The notes beneath the pieces were generated by a model. The model ran no database searches, had not been told where the DNA came from, and saw only the letters and a program-made list of their open reading frames with translations. Of a stretch of 64,000 nt of DNA, positions 15,302-21,575 are shown one piece after another. The stretch comes from Daejeonella sp. H1SJ63. GTDB lineage: Bacteria; Bacteroidota; Bacteroidia; Sphingobacteriales; Sphingobacteriaceae. The stretch covers positions 186,001 to 250,000 of the forward strand of contig NZ_JARKMZ010000028.1 of assembly GCF_029360775.1 (NCBI RefSeq), read 5' to 3'. Made by a program: the position numbers and the translations under genes. Position 1 is the first letter of the stretch. Every line of letters begins with the position of its first letter.

Positions 15302-16615
15302 ATGCAGAGAGAAATTTTAGAGACCAGAAGAAAAGCCTTAAAGATAAATTTAGATGAAGCGATTTACGGAACTTTTGCCGAAATAGGGGCAGGGCAGGAG
15401 GTCGCCAGAAATTTTTTCACTGCAGGTGCAGCCTCAGGTACAATTGCCAAGACCATGTCGGCCTATGATATGGTTTTTAGCAATTCTATTTACGGAACTG
15501 AAGAATCGGGCAGGTATGTTTCTGAATCACGTCTGGATAAAATGATTCAGCATGAGTTTGGACTGCTTTCTGAACGTCTTTGTGGTCCTAAATATGCCGG
15601 GAAGACTTTCTTTGCATTTGCAGATACTGTAACTACACTGAATTTTAATAAGACTAATGATCCTCATGGCTGGCTTGGAATACGTTTTCAGTTAAAGCCG
15701 GGCGGTGAGCCTAATGATATTATTTTTCATGTCAGGTTACTTGACAGCGATACCAGTTTGCAGCAGAATGTACTGGGAGTGCTTGGAGTAAACCTGGTTT
15801 ATGCTGCATATTATTATCATGATAATATTCAGTTTATGATTGAGTCGCTGGTAGATAATCTTACGGTTGGATCTGTAGAGATCGATTTAATTAGTCTCAG
15901 CGGGCCACATTTTAAAAACGCAAACGACAGGTTAGTGAATCTGTATTTAATTGCTAAAGGATTTTCAGGAGCTGCAATCTTTGATAAGGAGGGGCAGGTC
16001 AGGCAATCTAAAGATGTGCTGTACAAAAAGGATGTGATGATTTTGAGGACAAAATTTGGTCAGAAGTCAACCCCGAATTTTGATCTTTTCAACAAGGCAG
16101 TTGAACAGTTTAAACGTTCACAGAATGTAAGTGATGATAATATTATTGTGATGATCGAGATCCTCATGACTAATTTTCTGGAGAATGAAAGAACTGAAAA
16201 GGGAAATGAAGAACTTGAAACTTTTGCGAAGCGGGCTGAGGAATTGTGTGCAACAGGAAATTATGTAATTGTTTCTGATTTTACCAGGAACCATAAACTT
16301 GCTCAGTATCTGTCGCGATGCAATCCGAAAAGTGTTGGTATCTCTACCAATATTGCCAATCTGAAGAATATATTCAACTCTGCCAATTACGGAGAGCATT
16401 ATACTGATGAATTATTAGCTTATATCAGCGATCTTTTTAGTAAGAACGTGAAATTATATGCTTATCCCTATCTTGATAAAAAGAATAATGAGATTATCAC
16501 TACCAAAAATATGCCTGTTTCACCCGAGGCAAAGCATCTTTTTGAGTTTTTGATCCAGAATGGATATATAATGGATATAGATGAGTATGACGAGAAGTTT
16601 GTAAAAACAGTTTAA
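15302..16615 (+). CDS. Conserved cytosolic protein of unknown function
   Basis: A 438-residue protein starting MQREILETRRKALKINL. It has a striking conserved-looking segment IYGTFAEIGAGQEVARNFF followed by ASGTIAKTMSAYDM (about residues 20-60). I recall homologues in many Bacteroidota and some other phyla, often labelled as TonB-dependent receptor or nucleotide adenylyltransferase. Neither label fits: there is no signal peptide, plug or barrel, and no HxGH motif. It looks soluble, with mixed alpha/beta character. It is monocistronic with its own promoter. Function unknown. Confidence 0.7.
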   Translation: MQREILETRRKALKINLDEAIYGTFAEIGAGQEVARNFFTAGAASGTIAKTMSAYDMVFSNSIYGTEESGRYVSESRLDKMIQHEFGLLSERLCGPKYAGKTFFAFADTVTTLNFNKTNDPHGWLGIRFQLKPGGEPNDIIFHVRLLDSDTSLQQNVLGVLGVNLVYAAYYYHDNIQFMIESLVDNLTVGSVEIDLISLSGPHFKNANDRLVNLYLIAKGFSGAAIFDKEGQVRQSKDVLYKKDVMILRTKFGQKSTPNFDLFNKAVEQFKRSQNVSDDNIIVMIEILMTNFLENERTEKGNEELETFAKRAEELCATGNYVIVSDFTRNHKLAQYLSRCNPKSVGISTNIANLKNIFNSANYGEHYTDELLAYISDLFSKNVKLYAYPYLDKKNNEIITTKNMPVSPEAKHLFEFLIQNGYIMDIDEYDEKFVKTV

Positions 16616-16687
16616 TAACAGCGAGGCGATTGAAGAATCAAGGAACAGTATACTCCCTGCTCCTCATTCTTCACTTTCACTAAAGAA

Positions 16688-17179
16688 TTAGTTTCTCATG
16701 TTAATAAATTGCAGGGGTTGTCCAAAATCATCTCCTCTGCAAAGTGAAATTACAGCCTGAAGATCATCAATTTTTTTACCCTGAACTCTTACCTGATCAT
16801 CCATGATGGAAGCCTGAACTTTTAGCCCGCTGTCTTTTATTTTTTTAACAATTTTTTTTGCGGTTTCCTTGTCAATACCTTCTTTGATCTTAATTTCTTT
16901 TCGAAGCATATTGCCGGATGCATATTGTTCCTTGCCAAGATCCATACTTCCCGGGTCGAGGTTGTGTTTCACCATTCTGGATATGATAGCATCCTGAATG
17001 GCTTTCAGACGCATATCATTTTCTGTGATAATGGTAATCTCATTTGTCTTTTTATCAAGTTCCATACTGCTTTTGGAATCGTTGAAATCATAGCGGTTCA
17101 GAATCTCTTTTTTTGCGGTATTTATTGCATTGTCGAGGGTCTGACCATCTATTTTGCTTACAATATCAAATGTTGGCAT
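16688..17179 (-). CDS. YajQ-family nucleotide-binding protein
   Basis: A 163-residue member of the UPF0234/YajQ family, small two-domain proteins that in some bacteria bind cyclic di-GMP or tRNA. The opening PTFDIVSKIDGQTLDNAINT and the internal KKEILNRYDFNDSKSSMEL are diagnostic. The C-terminal VRVQGKKIDDLQAVISL is also typical. The gene stands alone. Binding of c-di-GMP is known for homologues (Xanthomonas) and is not implied by any visible residue here. Confidence 0.9.
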   Translation of the reverse strand: MPTFDIVSKIDGQTLDNAINTAKKEILNRYDFNDSKSSMELDKKTNEITIITENDMRLKAIQDAIISRMVKHNLDPGSMDLGKEQYASGNMLRKEIKIKEGIDKETAKKIVKKIKDSGLKVQASIMDDQVRVQGKKIDDLQAVISLCRGDDFGQPLQFINMRN

Positions 17180-17216
17180 GCTTGAATATCTAATTGGTTA
17201 ATGCTGAATTTTTTGG

Positions 17217-17224
17217 TATATTTA
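17217..17224 (+). promoter_or_regulatory. -7-like box of the H1-like gene
   Basis: TATATTTA with a TTG (17194-17196) 20 nt upstream. One mismatch from TAnnTTTG, 37 nt before the ATG at 17262. Confidence 0.4.
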
Positions 17225-17261
17225 GGTTATTACATTATAATCAATCCTAAAAATCAGGAAT

Positions 17262-17762
17262 ATGAAGGCAAATAAAGCAAAAACATCCAATAAAGCTGAA
17301 AAAAAAGTAGCTAAACAACTTATGAAAAAGGAGTTGGAGACTTCTATTTCAGCTAAATTTCTTGATGCATTGAGAGGCTTGGGGCACGACGCTGAAAAGT
17401 TTACAAAGGAAATCAGAAAAACCAGTAAGGAGCTTGCAAAGAAGATTGCTAAAAAATATAAGGACGCGAAAATTGCAGTTGAAGACAAGCTTGAGGGTAA
17501 TGCTAAAGTTAAGCCATTGAATACTGTTAAAAAGCCTGTATCTGCACCTAAAAAGGTTGTTGCTGCTGCAATTAAGAAAGCAGAAAAGGTTGTTGCAAAG
17601 GTTCAGAAGACTACGGTGCCAACAGTTAGGGCCGCTCGCAATAAAAGCATAGCTTCTGCGGCAGCTTCAGCCCCAAAAACTTCGGGCTCGCCCAAAGTAC
17701 CGGCGGTAAAAAAGCCAGTTGTGAAAAAAACTTCCGGTCCGAAACCCAAATCGGTTGAATAG
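17262..17762 (+). CDS. Lysine-rich histone H1-like protein
   Basis: A 166-residue, very basic protein with 41 lysines. The N-terminal half (to about residue 80) is a charged helical region with LDALRGLGHDAEKFTKEIRKTSKELAKKI. The C-terminal half is a low-complexity Lys/Ala/Pro/Val tail with repeated KKP, PKK and KP steps (VKKPVSAPKK, AVKKPVVKK). This resembles eukaryotic H1 tails and bacterial AlgP/PhaF-type proteins. It lies 96 bp upstream of ppk1 on the same strand. DNA or polyphosphate binding is inferred from charge and context only. Confidence 0.75.
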   Translation: MKANKAKTSNKAEKKVAKQLMKKELETSISAKFLDALRGLGHDAEKFTKEIRKTSKELAKKIAKKYKDAKIAVEDKLEGNAKVKPLNTVKKPVSAPKKVVAAAIKKAEKVVAKVQKTTVPTVRAARNKSIASAAASAPKTSGSPKVPAVKKPVVKKTSGPKPKSVE

Positions 17763-17858
17763 GATTGTTGCTATATCTTTATTTAATCTGTTATTAATAT
17801 TTAGTTAACATAAAAATCTGATTTTTATAGTCCCTGACTCCACAAAGGGATTTGTCCG

Positions 17859-19913
17859 ATGCCTAAAAATATTCCGCTTATTAATCGCGAGCTTAGCTGG
17901 TTATCCTTTAATGACCGGGTATTGCAGGAGGCTGATGACAGTACTGTCCCTCTTGTTGAACGTATCAGATTTCTGGCTATTTTTTCGTCTAACCTTGATG
18001 AGTTCTATAGGGTTAGGGTTGCAACATTGAACAGGCTTTCCAATTTAAATACAAAATCAAAGGAAATTCTGGGGTACAATCCTAAAAAGACACTGAACCA
18101 GATTAAGAATATTGTTGTAAAGCAGGAGCGGAAGTTCAATCATTTGTATGAGAATATCATTATAAAGGAACTTGAGCAGCAGAAGATATTCATCATCAAT
18201 GAGAAACAGCTGAATGTTTCCAGGGGGCTGTTTGTAAGGGAATATTTCAGGGAGAAGGTGCTTTCGACGCTTGTCCCGATTATGATTAACAAAGATGAAC
18301 CTTTTCCGGAGCTAAAGGACAGGGCCATTTATTTCTTTGTAAGACTGGTTCATCATAAGAATAAAGAAAAGTACAGGTACGCGCTTATTGAAATACCAAC
18401 AGACGGATCTAACCGTTTTCTTGTGCTTCCTGAGACCAATAATTTAAAGTTTATTACCCTCCTTGATGATATTGTAAGATATTGTCTTGATGATATATTT
18501 TTCATTTTCAACTATGATGATATAGAAGCTTATTCCATTCAGCTTACACGTGATGCTGAACTGGATCTGGATAAGCATGTAAGCGATAAATTTATCGATG
18601 CGTTGGCTAAAAGTTTGCAGAAGAGGGGAAAAGGCAAACCTATGAGGTTGATGTATGATACAGAAATGCCACTGGATATGCTTACATATCTTGTTACCGA
18701 GCTTGATCTGTCTGCCGACGGGCTAATCCCGGGGAACCGTTATCATAATTTCAAAGACTTTATAAGGTTTCCAAACGTTGGTGGTGCAGCTCTTGAATAT
18801 CCTCCATTGCAGGTTCTTCCGGTTAAGGGTCTCTCCAGTATGAAGAGTATATTTGGTCAGATAGCGATGCGTGATTATCTGGTTAATCTCCCATATCAGT
18901 CGTTTGATTACATTATTCATTTTTTAAGAGAGGCAGCCATTGATCCTAAAGTGAAGGAGATCAGTATTACTTTGTATCGTTTGGCTGAAAATTCGAGAGT
19001 TATTCATGCATTAATTAATGCGGCAAAGAATGGCAAAAAGGTTAATTGTTTGGTAGAACTTAAAGCAAGATTTGATGAGCAGGCAAATATTTACTGGACC
19101 AACAGACTTGAAGAAGAGGGGGTGAGCGTCAATTATGGCATCATGGACTATAAGGTTCACTCCAAAATCTGTCTGGTTAAGCGTTTGGAAAAGGGTAAGT
19201 TCTTTTATTATGCTAATCTTGCCACCGGTAATTATAATGAAAAGACAGCAGGTTTGTATTGTGATTATAGTCTGTTCACTGCTAATCCGCTGATTACGGA
19301 TGAGTTGATTAAATTATTCGACGGTCTTCAGAAGAAGGTGTTTTACAAGGGGTTTGAACATCTTATTGTATCTCCGCTTGAGAGCAGGAAGAAGTTTTAC
19401 GCGCTGATCGACAAAGAAATAAAAAATGTAAAATCTGCTAAAAAGGCATTCATTATTTTAAAAATGAATAGCCTTACCGATGAGGAAGTTATTACTAAGT
19501 TGTATGAAGCCAGTAATGCAGGAGTTAAAATTCAATTAATAATCCGTGGGATGTGCTGCCTTATACCCGGTGTTGAGGGTTTCAGTGAGAATATAGAAGT
19601 AATCAGTATCATTGATCGTTTTTTGGAACATGCAAGAGTATGGGTGTTCGCAAATGGAGGAAAAGAAAAGGTATTTTTGTCGTCTGCTGATCTGATGCCA
19701 AGGAATTTGGATCATAGGGTTGAGGTCGGATTTCCGGTTCTGGATCCGGATGTGAGAAAAGAGATTCTCGATATTCTTGAAATTCAGTTGAAGGATAATA
19801 CCAAGGCCAGGGAGATTAATGCTCAGAACAATAACAGATATATCAGAACAAGTTCAAAGGTTAAAAACAGGGCGCAAAAGGATATATATAATTACTTGAA
19901 ATTTAAAATATAA
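17859..19913 (+). CDS. ppk1: Polyphosphate kinase 1
   Basis: Makes inorganic polyphosphate from ATP, reversibly, via a phospho-histidine. The 684 residues match PPK1 length (E. coli 688). The N-domain opens with NRELSWLSFNDRVLQEA. The catalytic domains have two phospholipase-D-like halves: MDYKVHSKICLVKR with the active His near residue 433, and RFLEHARVWVFANGG with the second His near 590. YANLATGNYNEKTA is also typical. ppx follows 4 bp later, so synthesis and breakdown are coupled in one operon. Confidence 0.96.
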   Translation: MPKNIPLINRELSWLSFNDRVLQEADDSTVPLVERIRFLAIFSSNLDEFYRVRVATLNRLSNLNTKSKEILGYNPKKTLNQIKNIVVKQERKFNHLYENIIIKELEQQKIFIINEKQLNVSRGLFVREYFREKVLSTLVPIMINKDEPFPELKDRAIYFFVRLVHHKNKEKYRYALIEIPTDGSNRFLVLPETNNLKFITLLDDIVRYCLDDIFFIFNYDDIEAYSIQLTRDAELDLDKHVSDKFIDALAKSLQKRGKGKPMRLMYDTEMPLDMLTYLVTELDLSADGLIPGNRYHNFKDFIRFPNVGGAALEYPPLQVLPVKGLSSMKSIFGQIAMRDYLVNLPYQSFDYIIHFLREAAIDPKVKEISITLYRLAENSRVIHALINAAKNGKKVNCLVELKARFDEQANIYWTNRLEEEGVSVNYGIMDYKVHSKICLVKRLEKGKFFYYANLATGNYNEKTAGLYCDYSLFTANPLITDELIKLFDGLQKKVFYKGFEHLIVSPLESRKKFYALIDKEIKNVKSAKKAFIILKMNSLTDEEVITKLYEASNAGVKIQLIIRGMCCLIPGVEGFSENIEVISIIDRFLEHARVWVFANGGKEKVFLSSADLMPRNLDHRVEVGFPVLDPDVRKEILDILEIQLKDNTKAREINAQNNNRYIRTSSKVKNRAQKDIYNYLKFKI

Positions 19914-19917
19914 TACA

Positions 19918-20799
19918 TTGAGATACGCTGCTATAGATATTGGGTCGAATGCTGTCAGGTTGCTAATAGCTGATATTACACAGAATGATAAGACAATTTC
20001 TTTTAAAAAGAATACATTGATTCGTGTGCCATTGCGTTTGGGGGATGATGCCTTTCTGGATAAAAAAATTTCATTAAAAAAGATTGATGAACTGGTTAAG
20101 ACCATGGTTGCATTCAGAAATCTTATCGATGTTTATAAGGTTGGGGATTATATGGCTTGTGCAACTTCTGCTATGCGCGAAGCAAAGAACGGAAGTTTGA
20201 TTGTTCAGAAAATAAAGTCAGAAGCAAATATTGATCTGGAGATTGTAGAAGGGCAGAGAGAGGCCAAGATCATTTATGCAAGTCATATTGAGCAAAGCCT
20301 GGATAAGAAAAAGAATTATTTGTACATAGATGTTGGCGGGGGCAGTACCGAACTTTCTATTTTCAGTAATGGCGAAATGATAGCTTCACGTTCATTTAAT
20401 CTTGGTGGGATTAGAATTCTTGACAATCAGGACAAAGACGAAACCTGGGCAGAGATGAAAGACTGGGTTAAACAGAAAACTCAATCCTACAAAAACCTTT
20501 CGGGGATTGGAACCGGAGGGAATATTAATAAGTTATTTCGTATGGCTGACCTTAAAGATGGAAGTCCCGTTAGCTTTGCAAAGCTAAGATCATTGTATCT
20601 CTATCTGAATTCCTTTTCATTAAAAGACAGGATCAATGTACTCGGGCTTAATCAGGATAGGGCTGACGTTATTATTCCTGCTTCAGAAATATATCTTAGC
20701 GTAATGAAATGGGGCGGTGTTAAGCAGATTTACGTACCCAGAGTAGGTTTGGTAGATGGGATTATCCAGCTATTGATTGATAAAAATTTCGCTGAATAA
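19918..20799 (+). CDS. ppx: Exopolyphosphatase/GppA-family phosphatase, TTG start
   Basis: Ppx/GppA phosphatase of the actin-like ATPase fold that degrades polyphosphate or pppGpp. The phosphate loops AIDIGSNAVRLLI (residues 5-17) and DVGGGSTELSIF (near 140) are clear. At 293 residues it is the short form, lacking the C-terminal HD-like domain of E. coli Ppx. The only start that retains the first phosphate loop is TTG at 19918, four bases after the ppk1 stop, which suggests weak, coupled translation. Its stop abuts the stop of the convergent PAP2 gene. Confidence 0.9.
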   Translation: MRYAAIDIGSNAVRLLIADITQNDKTISFKKNTLIRVPLRLGDDAFLDKKISLKKIDELVKTMVAFRNLIDVYKVGDYMACATSAMREAKNGSLIVQKIKSEANIDLEIVEGQREAKIIYASHIEQSLDKKKNYLYIDVGGGSTELSIFSNGEMIASRSFNLGGIRILDNQDKDETWAEMKDWVKQKTQSYKNLSGIGTGGNINKLFRMADLKDGSPVSFAKLRSLYLYLNSFSLKDRINVLGLNQDRADVIIPASEIYLSVMKWGGVKQIYVPRVGLVDGIIQLLIDKNFAE

Positions 20800-21429
20800 T
20801 TAAGATTCAATGATTTTTTTAGACCCTACCCAAAGGAAATAAGTGATAACCGGTGCCATTATAACATCCATGGTATAATGAACGTGCTGAATGAGTACAG
20901 CGGCTCCAATAATCAGGGTTGCCAGTAAAGCAAGAACCTTATCAGTTCTTTTTTTCAGACAAAGAAACATCAGAAACATAGCTGCAGTATGTCCGGAAAA
21001 GAAGAGGTCTTTAGTTATAAATTTAGGGCCGTAAAACTGATTGGCTATTGGATCATGAATCGGAATTAGATCTGCTGGCGGATTCAGCGGAAAAAGGCCA
21101 ATTGAAACAAAGCGGGAAAGGTTTATAAGAATAAAGCCCCACAGGAAATTTAAAAATATATGCGGGTCTTGTTTGAATCTGCTGAATGTTAGCAGGGTCA
21201 TAGACCAGATTACTACAAAAATAAAGAGTGAAAGATCATATGCCGGTATATAAGCAAGTAAATAATCATTAAAGCCTATCCCGTTTCTTTGTTCAATAGC
21301 CTGATAAAAGAATGGAAGAGACACAAGAATGAAAGACATTAATATTAATCCGGTTATAAACTTCTTTCTGTAATCAGAATCTTGCCAGTTACTTCTCCAC
21401 ACACTGACTGCTACTCTTGGTTCAGACAT
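20800..21429 (-). CDS. PAP2-like membrane phosphatase/phosphotransferase (PAP2_C type)
   Basis: Integral membrane protein of 209 residues with about six hydrophobic helices. The C-terminal third carries FFSGHTAAMF and HVHYTMDVIMAP, which supply the His-His-Asp triad of the PAP2_C (sphingomyelin-synthase-like) group rather than the classic KxxxxxxRP motif of PAP2. It may transfer or remove a lipid head-group phosphate. It converges with ppx with no bases between the stops. Because Sphingobacteria make sphingolipids, a sphingolipid substrate is possible but unproven. Confidence 0.75.
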   Translation of the reverse strand: MSEPRVAVSVWRSNWQDSDYRKKFITGLILMSFILVSLPFFYQAIEQRNGIGFNDYLLAYIPAYDLSLFIFVVIWSMTLLTFSRFKQDPHIFLNFLWGFILINLSRFVSIGLFPLNPPADLIPIHDPIANQFYGPKFITKDLFFSGHTAAMFLMFLCLKKRTDKVLALLATLIIGAAVLIQHVHYTMDVIMAPVITYFLWVGSKKIIES

Positions 21430-21455
21430 CTATTTCTCCTTTTTTTTTAAGCGCA

Positions 21456-21463
21456 CAAAAATA
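21456..21463 (-). promoter_or_regulatory. -7 box of the PAP2-like gene
   Basis: TATTTTTG on the minus strand, a full match to TAnnTTTG, 26 nt before the ATG at 21429. Confidence 0.5.
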
Positions 21464-21575
21464 CATCTTTAATTTCTTTGTTAAAAGCCCAAAATCGCAT
21501 TCATTTAATACATGATTTCAGACTTATTTAACTGTGTGATTTATGTTTTATTATGTCTGAAAACTAGTTTTTTTC

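Follow-up and report, generated by a model that had tools for sequence, protein, structure and literature searches.

Introduction

In Pseudomonas aeruginosa, the Lys-rich protein AlgP is found on polyphosphate (polyP) granules; it carries a charge of +55 and 25 perfect KPAA repeats, and the parts of the same report that we draw on also describe DNA binding by the H1-like tails of AlgP and PhaF, with the PhaF tail proposed as a tether between a storage granule and DNA (PMC9239181). A 2025 review names AlgP as the factor that places polyP granules (passages of PMC13052382). In E. coli, a disordered Lys-rich region of YihI binds polyP, and the polyP binders of that organism include ribosome-biogenesis proteins (excerpts of PMC12345225); CHAD proteins, which are positively charged and helical, are likewise found on polyP granules and in some bacteria are encoded near ppk (excerpts of PMC10892726). 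Here we describe a Lys-rich protein of 166 amino acids (aa), which we name H1L, encoded immediately upstream of the polyphosphate kinase gene ppk1 in a 64,000-nucleotide (nt) stretch of the Daejeonella sp. H1SJ63 genome (contig NZ_JARKMZ010000028.1; this whole stretch is hereafter the window). H1L is a real, selected gene whose place beside ppk1 recurs in two remote branches of Bacteroidota, and we propose, at about even confidence, that it is a PPK1-linked scaffold or organizer of polyP.

A conserved gene with a predicted hairpin and a basic tail

The locus contains the following parts, given with the evidence for each:

17262..17762, + strand: H1L gene, 166 aa, stop codon included (open reading frame (ORF), homologues, purifying selection)
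17277..17498, + strand: H1L codons 6–79, predicted helical hairpin with helices 6–39 and 44–79 and a turn at the LGHDAEK motif (AlphaFold2 pLDDT, motif conservation)
17499..17759, + strand: H1L codons 80–166, basic Lys/Ala/Val/Pro tail, modelled as mostly disordered (AlphaFold2, composition)
17859..19913, + strand: ppk1, polyphosphate kinase 1, 684 aa (ORF, Pfam, NCBIfam)
19918..20799, + strand: ppx, exopolyphosphatase family, 293 aa, TTG start (ORF, Pfam, NCBIfam)

The ORFs bear out the measurements of the initial annotation, which had described a 166-residue protein with 41 lysines ending 96 base pairs (bp) before ppk1 (ATG at 17859), with ppx starting 4 bp past the ppk1 stop and all three genes on the + strand. 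The ppk1 product matches NCBIfam TIGR03705 (E 2.6e-235), and the ppx product is clear by Pfam Ppx-GppA (E 1.9e-32), with 207 bits against TIGR03706, below the curated cut-off of 307. Alongside its lysines H1L holds 26 Ala, 10 Pro, 4 Arg and 14 Asp plus Glu, for a net charge of +31. Since the lysines divide 21 to 20 between residues 1–80 and 81–166, the protein is Lys-rich over its whole length; proline is confined to the second part (0% against 11.6%).

BLAST found H1L in 22 of 60 genomes, its own counted, including 14 of 19 congeners. Four of the five congeners without it also gave no ppk1 match (G007, G013, G014, G017), and among these only G013 is informative, because neither G014 nor G017 is complete and yajQ, the upstream neighbor, is likewise missing from G007; in the fifth, G008, ppk1 sits at a contig end. 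Across 21 orthologous loci (L003–L023), H1L is adjoined by yajQ in all 21 and by ppk1 in 20; the remaining locus (L008) reaches the end of its contig, and in that genome the contig with ppk1 (L059) starts inside an H1L-like tail. A second copy in genome G025 (L024) lies distant from ppk1.

Across 37 aligned homologues an LG is invariant, and the HD that follows it is nearly so. For 11 close pairs, dN/dS (simple Nei-Gojobori, with some dS values >1) was 0.01–0.32 in the first 80 codons and 0.10–0.41 in the remainder. AlphaFold2 places the two helices with high confidence (block-mean pLDDT 80–97 for residues 11–80), after which block means fall to 45–60 from residue 81, with a low-confidence helix at 98–116. 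The median net charge over 47 family proteins is +33. H1L is thus a real, selected gene encoding a predicted helical hairpin and a faster-changing basic tail; conservation and dN/dS speak against a non-gene or low-complexity noise.

Comparison with AlgP and other basic proteins

H1L resembles AlgP in its predicted helical N-terminus, its long disordered Lys/Ala/Pro tail and its high positive charge (AlgP features from parts of PMC9239181), but differs in lacking the C-terminal KPAA array: the motif does not occur in the window H1L, and 48 family proteins together hold 19 copies, at most 4 in one. The ties to polyP also differ in kind, being experimental for AlgP and by gene adjacency for H1L. 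The initial annotation had suggested a Bacteroidota counterpart of AlgP. The likeness of build stands (helical N-terminus, disordered Lys/Ala/Pro tail, charge); because the KPAA-repeat tail is absent, "counterpart" can mean only that H1L may work like AlgP. In function AlgP offers the best parallel, and we do not claim membership of its family.

Other granule and DNA-binding proteins are more distant. PhaF has a tail of the same kind (parts of PMC9239181), but H1L adjoins ppk1 rather than PHA genes, and Pfam scans of H1L, 37 family homologues and 15 proteins of a remote branch described below (C-type) gave no match to any phasin model. Hc1 (PF07432) of Bacteroidota and chlamydiae is likewise small, basic and H1-like, but no profile match to it appeared in H1L or in any of the 37 and 15 homologues, and it is encoded separately, with two copies on other contigs of this genome. 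CHAD proteins share positive charge and helices with H1L, but the same Pfam scans found no CHAD match.

The initial annotation could put no name to the family, rightly: the window H1L belongs to no Pfam or NCBIfam family, with matches at E up to 1 all far below cut-offs. Among its homologues (NCBIfam was run on the 37 only), single members gave weak, scattered matches, to Pfam apolipoprotein in 11 of 37, NCBIfam ZorA_1 in 4 of 37, GerE in 1 of 15 and others in 1–2 members, which we take as helix or composition effects. A Foldseek search of the PDB returned 20 matches, none at E <= 0.001, and a profile search of PDB sequences returned a single match at E 0.2. We found no description of the family or of its ppk1 link in the open-licence literature searched, judged mostly from titles and abstracts.

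Linkage to ppk1 within Sphingobacteriaceae

We surveyed 121 Sphingobacteriaceae genomes of at least 95% completeness, 118 of which carry ppk1. The H1L profile, to which at least 20 of the matched genomes had contributed members, gave 75 matches in 67 genomes, and 63 of these lie directly upstream of a main-type ppk1 on the same strand (102–609 bp between profile matches). The other 12 are unlinked to ppk1, and four genomes carry only an unlinked copy. Rank in the ppk1 list divides the 118 genomes into 100 that have the main type and 18 that have a divergent type only. Any H1L match occurs in 67 of the 100, in none of the 18 and in none of the 3 genomes without ppk1; the 18-genome contrast represents few events, because 15 of the 18 belong to one genus (g17).

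Adjacent H1L was found in 13 of the 20 sampled genera of the family, and by genus it accompanies main-type ppk1 in 13/13 genomes of g1 (the window's genus), 17/17 of g14 and 15/15 of g147. Some members escape the profile searches, as in g6 (L028), where ppk1 is preceded by a divergent Lys-rich ORF that went unmatched. Independently of profiles, 45 of 80 ppk1 loci have a Lys-rich ORF (K >= 18%) immediately before ppk1, as against 0 of 279 other ORFs of at least 200 aa in the same loci, an excess over chance. The 80 are those whose PPK1 most resembles that of the window, and because they are mutually related a Fisher p value for this contrast is not calibrated. The family count excludes small Lys-rich ORFs of very short length (L034 and L050, plus one of 50 aa in L052) or located apart from ppk1 (L049). 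A gene not conserved next to ppk1 in relatives, which the initial annotation had named as telling against its idea, is therefore not what we observe, given these 13 genera and the other Bacteroidia described below, although several lineages keep ppk1 without H1L.

Two side observations concern these loci. One unlinked paralogue (L229, 3048–3434) lies ~700 bp upstream of pstS-like and pstC-like genes, as judged by eye. The divergent ppk1 type, at 38–42% identity to the window's ppk1 in five loci (L029, L033, L055, L056, L057), has neither H1L nor ppx in the stretch examined; 21–50 bp upstream of it is a same-strand ORF of 389–440 aa with an HN..HT motif, HD-like by eye.

The partner is ppk1 rather than yajQ

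H1L lies between ppk1 and a divergent neighbor:

16688..17179, - strand: yajQ (DUF520), divergent neighbor of H1L (Pfam, locus comparison)

The two possible partners can be told apart where yajQ is found away from ppk1, which is so in 15 loci, 14 of them judgeable (L075 is cut at a contig end on the relevant side). No H1L-type gene adjoins yajQ in 13 of the 14, and we reject linkage to yajQ rather than ppk1 on this ground; the fourteenth, L062, from a genome without ppk1, has a KKAAP-repeat ORF at yajQ and tells slightly against this. In L028, L032, L042, L052 and L054, on the other hand, a Lys-rich ORF stands before ppk1 with no yajQ there. In G013, which has no ppk1, yajQ is next to a transporter-like gene and H1L is also gone. 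In G026 (L064), yajQ and ppx are direct divergent neighbors, with H1L and main-type ppk1 both absent between them. These two cases are joint losses of H1L and ppk1, each of which a single deletion could explain.

A remote branch in other Bacteroidia

Lys-rich proteins of 70–130 aa, which we call C-type, are encoded 15–94 bp before ppk1 in Chitinophaga-labelled and other Bacteroidia metagenome-assembled genomes (MAGs), from which 15 were collected. Aligned by hhalign, the C-type and Sphingobacteriaceae cores score 29.85 over 47 columns, where 200 column shuffles average 8.7 and reach at most 14.67. AlphaFold2 models one C-type protein as a hairpin (helices 3–24 and 26–57) followed by a low-confidence tail. 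Judged from sequence, the hairpin cores of the two branches are homologous; their kinship rests on the hhalign comparison, because neither profile finds the other branch.

On 217 genomes of the class, the C-type profile gave 19 matches in 17 genomes, 16 of the 19 directly upstream of ppk1. Profile members had come from at least six of these 17 genomes, and 10 of the other 11 have an adjacent copy. The Sphingobacteriaceae profile gave 4 matches on the same genomes, all in Sphingobacteriaceae and all before ppk1. As a separate observation, in L200–L203 (class family f9) the ppk1 frame begins 612–1377 nt early, so that PPK1 is 888–1148 aa with a long N-terminal extension.

Association with SixA-like phosphatases

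By motif search, a SixA-like ORF precedes H1L in 11 of 13 C-type loci, and two further C-type loci (L042, L054) show other genes there. More widely, 42 of 136 loci, a total that includes duplicates and H1L loci, have a SixA-like ORF in the 700 bp preceding ppk1. In two MAG records titled Deltaproteobacteria and Calditrichaceae (L132, 2749–4005; L137, 2791–4017), a SixA-like protein itself carries an H1L-like C-terminal part and then a long Lys/Ala/Pro tail. This part aligns with the C-type core without gaps over 50 columns at 23.96 (best of 200 shuffles 13.25) and with the Sphingobacteriaceae core at 21.29 over 29 columns (best of 200 shuffles 15.68). Because HMMER scores for it are weak (11.2 and 4.1 bits) and the two proteins are close relatives, we call homology of the SixA-fused domain to the H1L hairpin only probable.

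Against TIGR00249 the fusions score 62–67 bits, below the cut-off of 74.5. If the nearest in-frame GTG is the ppk1 start, the fusion frame overlaps ppk1 by 23 nt. yajQ is absent both from these loci and from those with the order sixA-H1L-ppk1. A further candidate fusion, in a Spirochaetales MAG (L140), was set aside: it consists of SixA plus a basic extension with no match to the H1L profiles.

Elements in the gap between H1L and ppk1

Two elements were noted in the 96-bp gap of the window:

17783..17809, + strand: Pho-box-like element with TTAAT/TTAAT/TTAAC repeats (sequence; repeat pair in family gaps)
17829..17852, + strand: stem-loop directly before the ppk1 start (folding versus shuffles; weak here, with stronger copies in many relatives)

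The repeats of the first element are 11 bp apart, at 17783, 17794 and 17805. Direct repeats with an 11-bp period are the form of PhoB-type boxes, and we presume such a likeness in calling the TTAAY repeats Pho-box-like. TTAAY-N6-TTAAY occurs in 43 of 48 family gaps (50 dinucleotide shuffles: mean 0.4, maximum 2) and in none of 47 stretches of 200 bp taken upstream of H1L. It lies within 300 bp in 31 of 103 further ppk1 loci, which include duplicates of the 48 (shuffles 1.4). Similar repeats were also seen before ppk1 in relatives without H1L, for example L089, L091 and L103.

Across the family, the 75 bases that precede ppk1 show better folding than their shuffles (mean z -2.1; z < -2 in 29 of 59 loci). 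Stem position is roughly constant and stem sequence varies, the copy in the window being weak (z -0.7); a stem-loop between the Pho-box-like repeat and the ppk1 start is often T-rich downstream (L003, L015, L023, L111). It is possibly a leader, attenuator or terminator. Because the Pho-box-like repeat stands between the genes, co-transcription of H1L with ppk1 is doubtful in Sphingobacteriaceae. C-type gaps are short and hold no Pho-box-like repeat, and for that reason an operon is likelier there. TAnnTTTG, the promoter pattern of Bacteroidota, is not enriched before H1L or ppk1.

Proposed function and alternatives

From its charge, predicted disorder and Lys/Ala/Pro content, H1L likely binds a polyanion, and the ppk1 link tilts the odds for its target toward polyP or PPK1 itself. 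The explanation that we prefer, though we would put it no higher than evenly balanced, is a PPK1-linked polyP scaffold or organizer. The hairpin would oligomerize or dock on PPK1 or a partner, and the cationic disordered tail would bind newly made polyP, and perhaps DNA, through many weak lysine-phosphate contacts. PolyP could thereby be condensed into granules or held to the nucleoid, so that H1L would act like AlgP, homology to it not being implied. This explanation draws support from ppk1 adjacency in two remote homologous branches, from the restriction of H1L matches in the surveyed Sphingobacteriaceae to genomes with main-type ppk1, from the confident hairpin and disordered tail predicted in both, from the sixA-H1L-ppk1 order and the SixA-H1L fusion, from charge and from the parallels with YihI and AlgP.

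Several observations weigh against a scaffold. The genomes surveyed are related, and adjacency counts are hence not independent trials. Main-type ppk1 is kept without adjacent H1L in 9/9 genomes of g4 (which holds Parapedobacter soli), 15/16 of g15 (which holds a Mucilaginibacter) and 5/5 of g149, and across many class families a Lys-rich ORF is in place in only 3 of 60 ppk1 loci (L183, L197, L212). Unlinked short hairpin paralogues exist in varied places (11 of the 12 unlinked matches were re-found). In one ppk1-less genome (L062; genome G029, 2 Mb), a 117-aa ORF of pure KKAAP repeats stands beside yajQ, 231–584 bp from its start. Finally, the Sphingobacteriaceae ppk1-ppx pair probably has its own start site and leader, apart from H1L.

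The alternative that survives best, possible in our view but rather doubtful, takes H1L for a regulator or accessory subunit of PPK1, with the hairpin docking on the enzyme (or on SixA where present) and the tail holding or guiding the growing chain, altering its length or direction, with no organizing of granules. Immediate adjacency to ppk1 in both branches would fit, as would the 23-nt overlap of ppk1 with the SixA-H1L fusion of L132 and L137 (given the GTG start) and the G026 locus, where yajQ and ppx have neither H1L nor main ppk1 between them. An accessory subunit sits poorly with the many lineages that have ppk1 without H1L and with the unlinked H1L paralogues. E. coli PPK1 works without H1L, and we count this against it as well.

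We think it unlikely that H1L is a general nucleoid-associated, H1-like DNA binder whose position at ppk1 reflects inherited gene order and says nothing about polyP. The DNA-binding tails of AlgP and PhaF (parts of PMC9239181), the likely separate transcription of H1L in Sphingobacteriaceae and the varied places of the unlinked paralogues speak for such a role. But the upstream neighbors change (yajQ, sixA, others) while the ppk1 link stays; H1L is absent in 13 of the 14 judgeable loci where yajQ is away from ppk1, and no H1L match occurs in the 21 genomes without main-type ppk1. Moreover, the same genomes carry a known H1-like family, Hc1, at other places. An RNA- or ribosome-binding basic protein is very improbable: its very basic, helical character is a general trait and E. 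coli polyP binders do include ribosome-biogenesis proteins (excerpts of PMC12345225), but the ribosomal-protein matches in Foldseek are all at E >= 1 and carry no weight, there is no family, sequence or fold match, and no such link appears in the gene neighborhoods examined.

This family beside ppk1 in two Bacteroidota branches offers a second, independently placed candidate for placing polyP besides AlgP, and the question of how bacteria pack and place polyP becomes directly testable in cultured Pedobacter or Daejeonella; H1L is present in Pedobacter alluvionis DSM 19624 (L096) and Daejeonella oryzae DSM 19973 (L078). SixA often precedes ppk1 and in L132 and L137 carries the H1L-like C-terminal part, but H1L itself has no phosphatase domain. 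The probable domain fusion points to a link between histidine phosphatase and polyP synthesis, of which we found no description in the literature searched. We tentatively suggest, as an idea still less secure than the scaffold, that sixA-H1L-ppk1 is an old synthesis-and-packaging module. In it the hairpin, free or SixA-fused, would dock at PPK1, the tail would condense the nascent chain and the phosphatase would tune the PPK1 phosphohistidine; Sphingobacteriaceae would have kept the packaging part without an adjoining sixA, with ppk1 under a Pho-type promoter in the gap.

Elsewhere at the locus, no Rfam match was found in 16600–21500. A 437-aa ORF between hsp20 and yajQ (15302–16612) has no Pfam match above chance and is ~62–89% identical in relatives over the parts compared.

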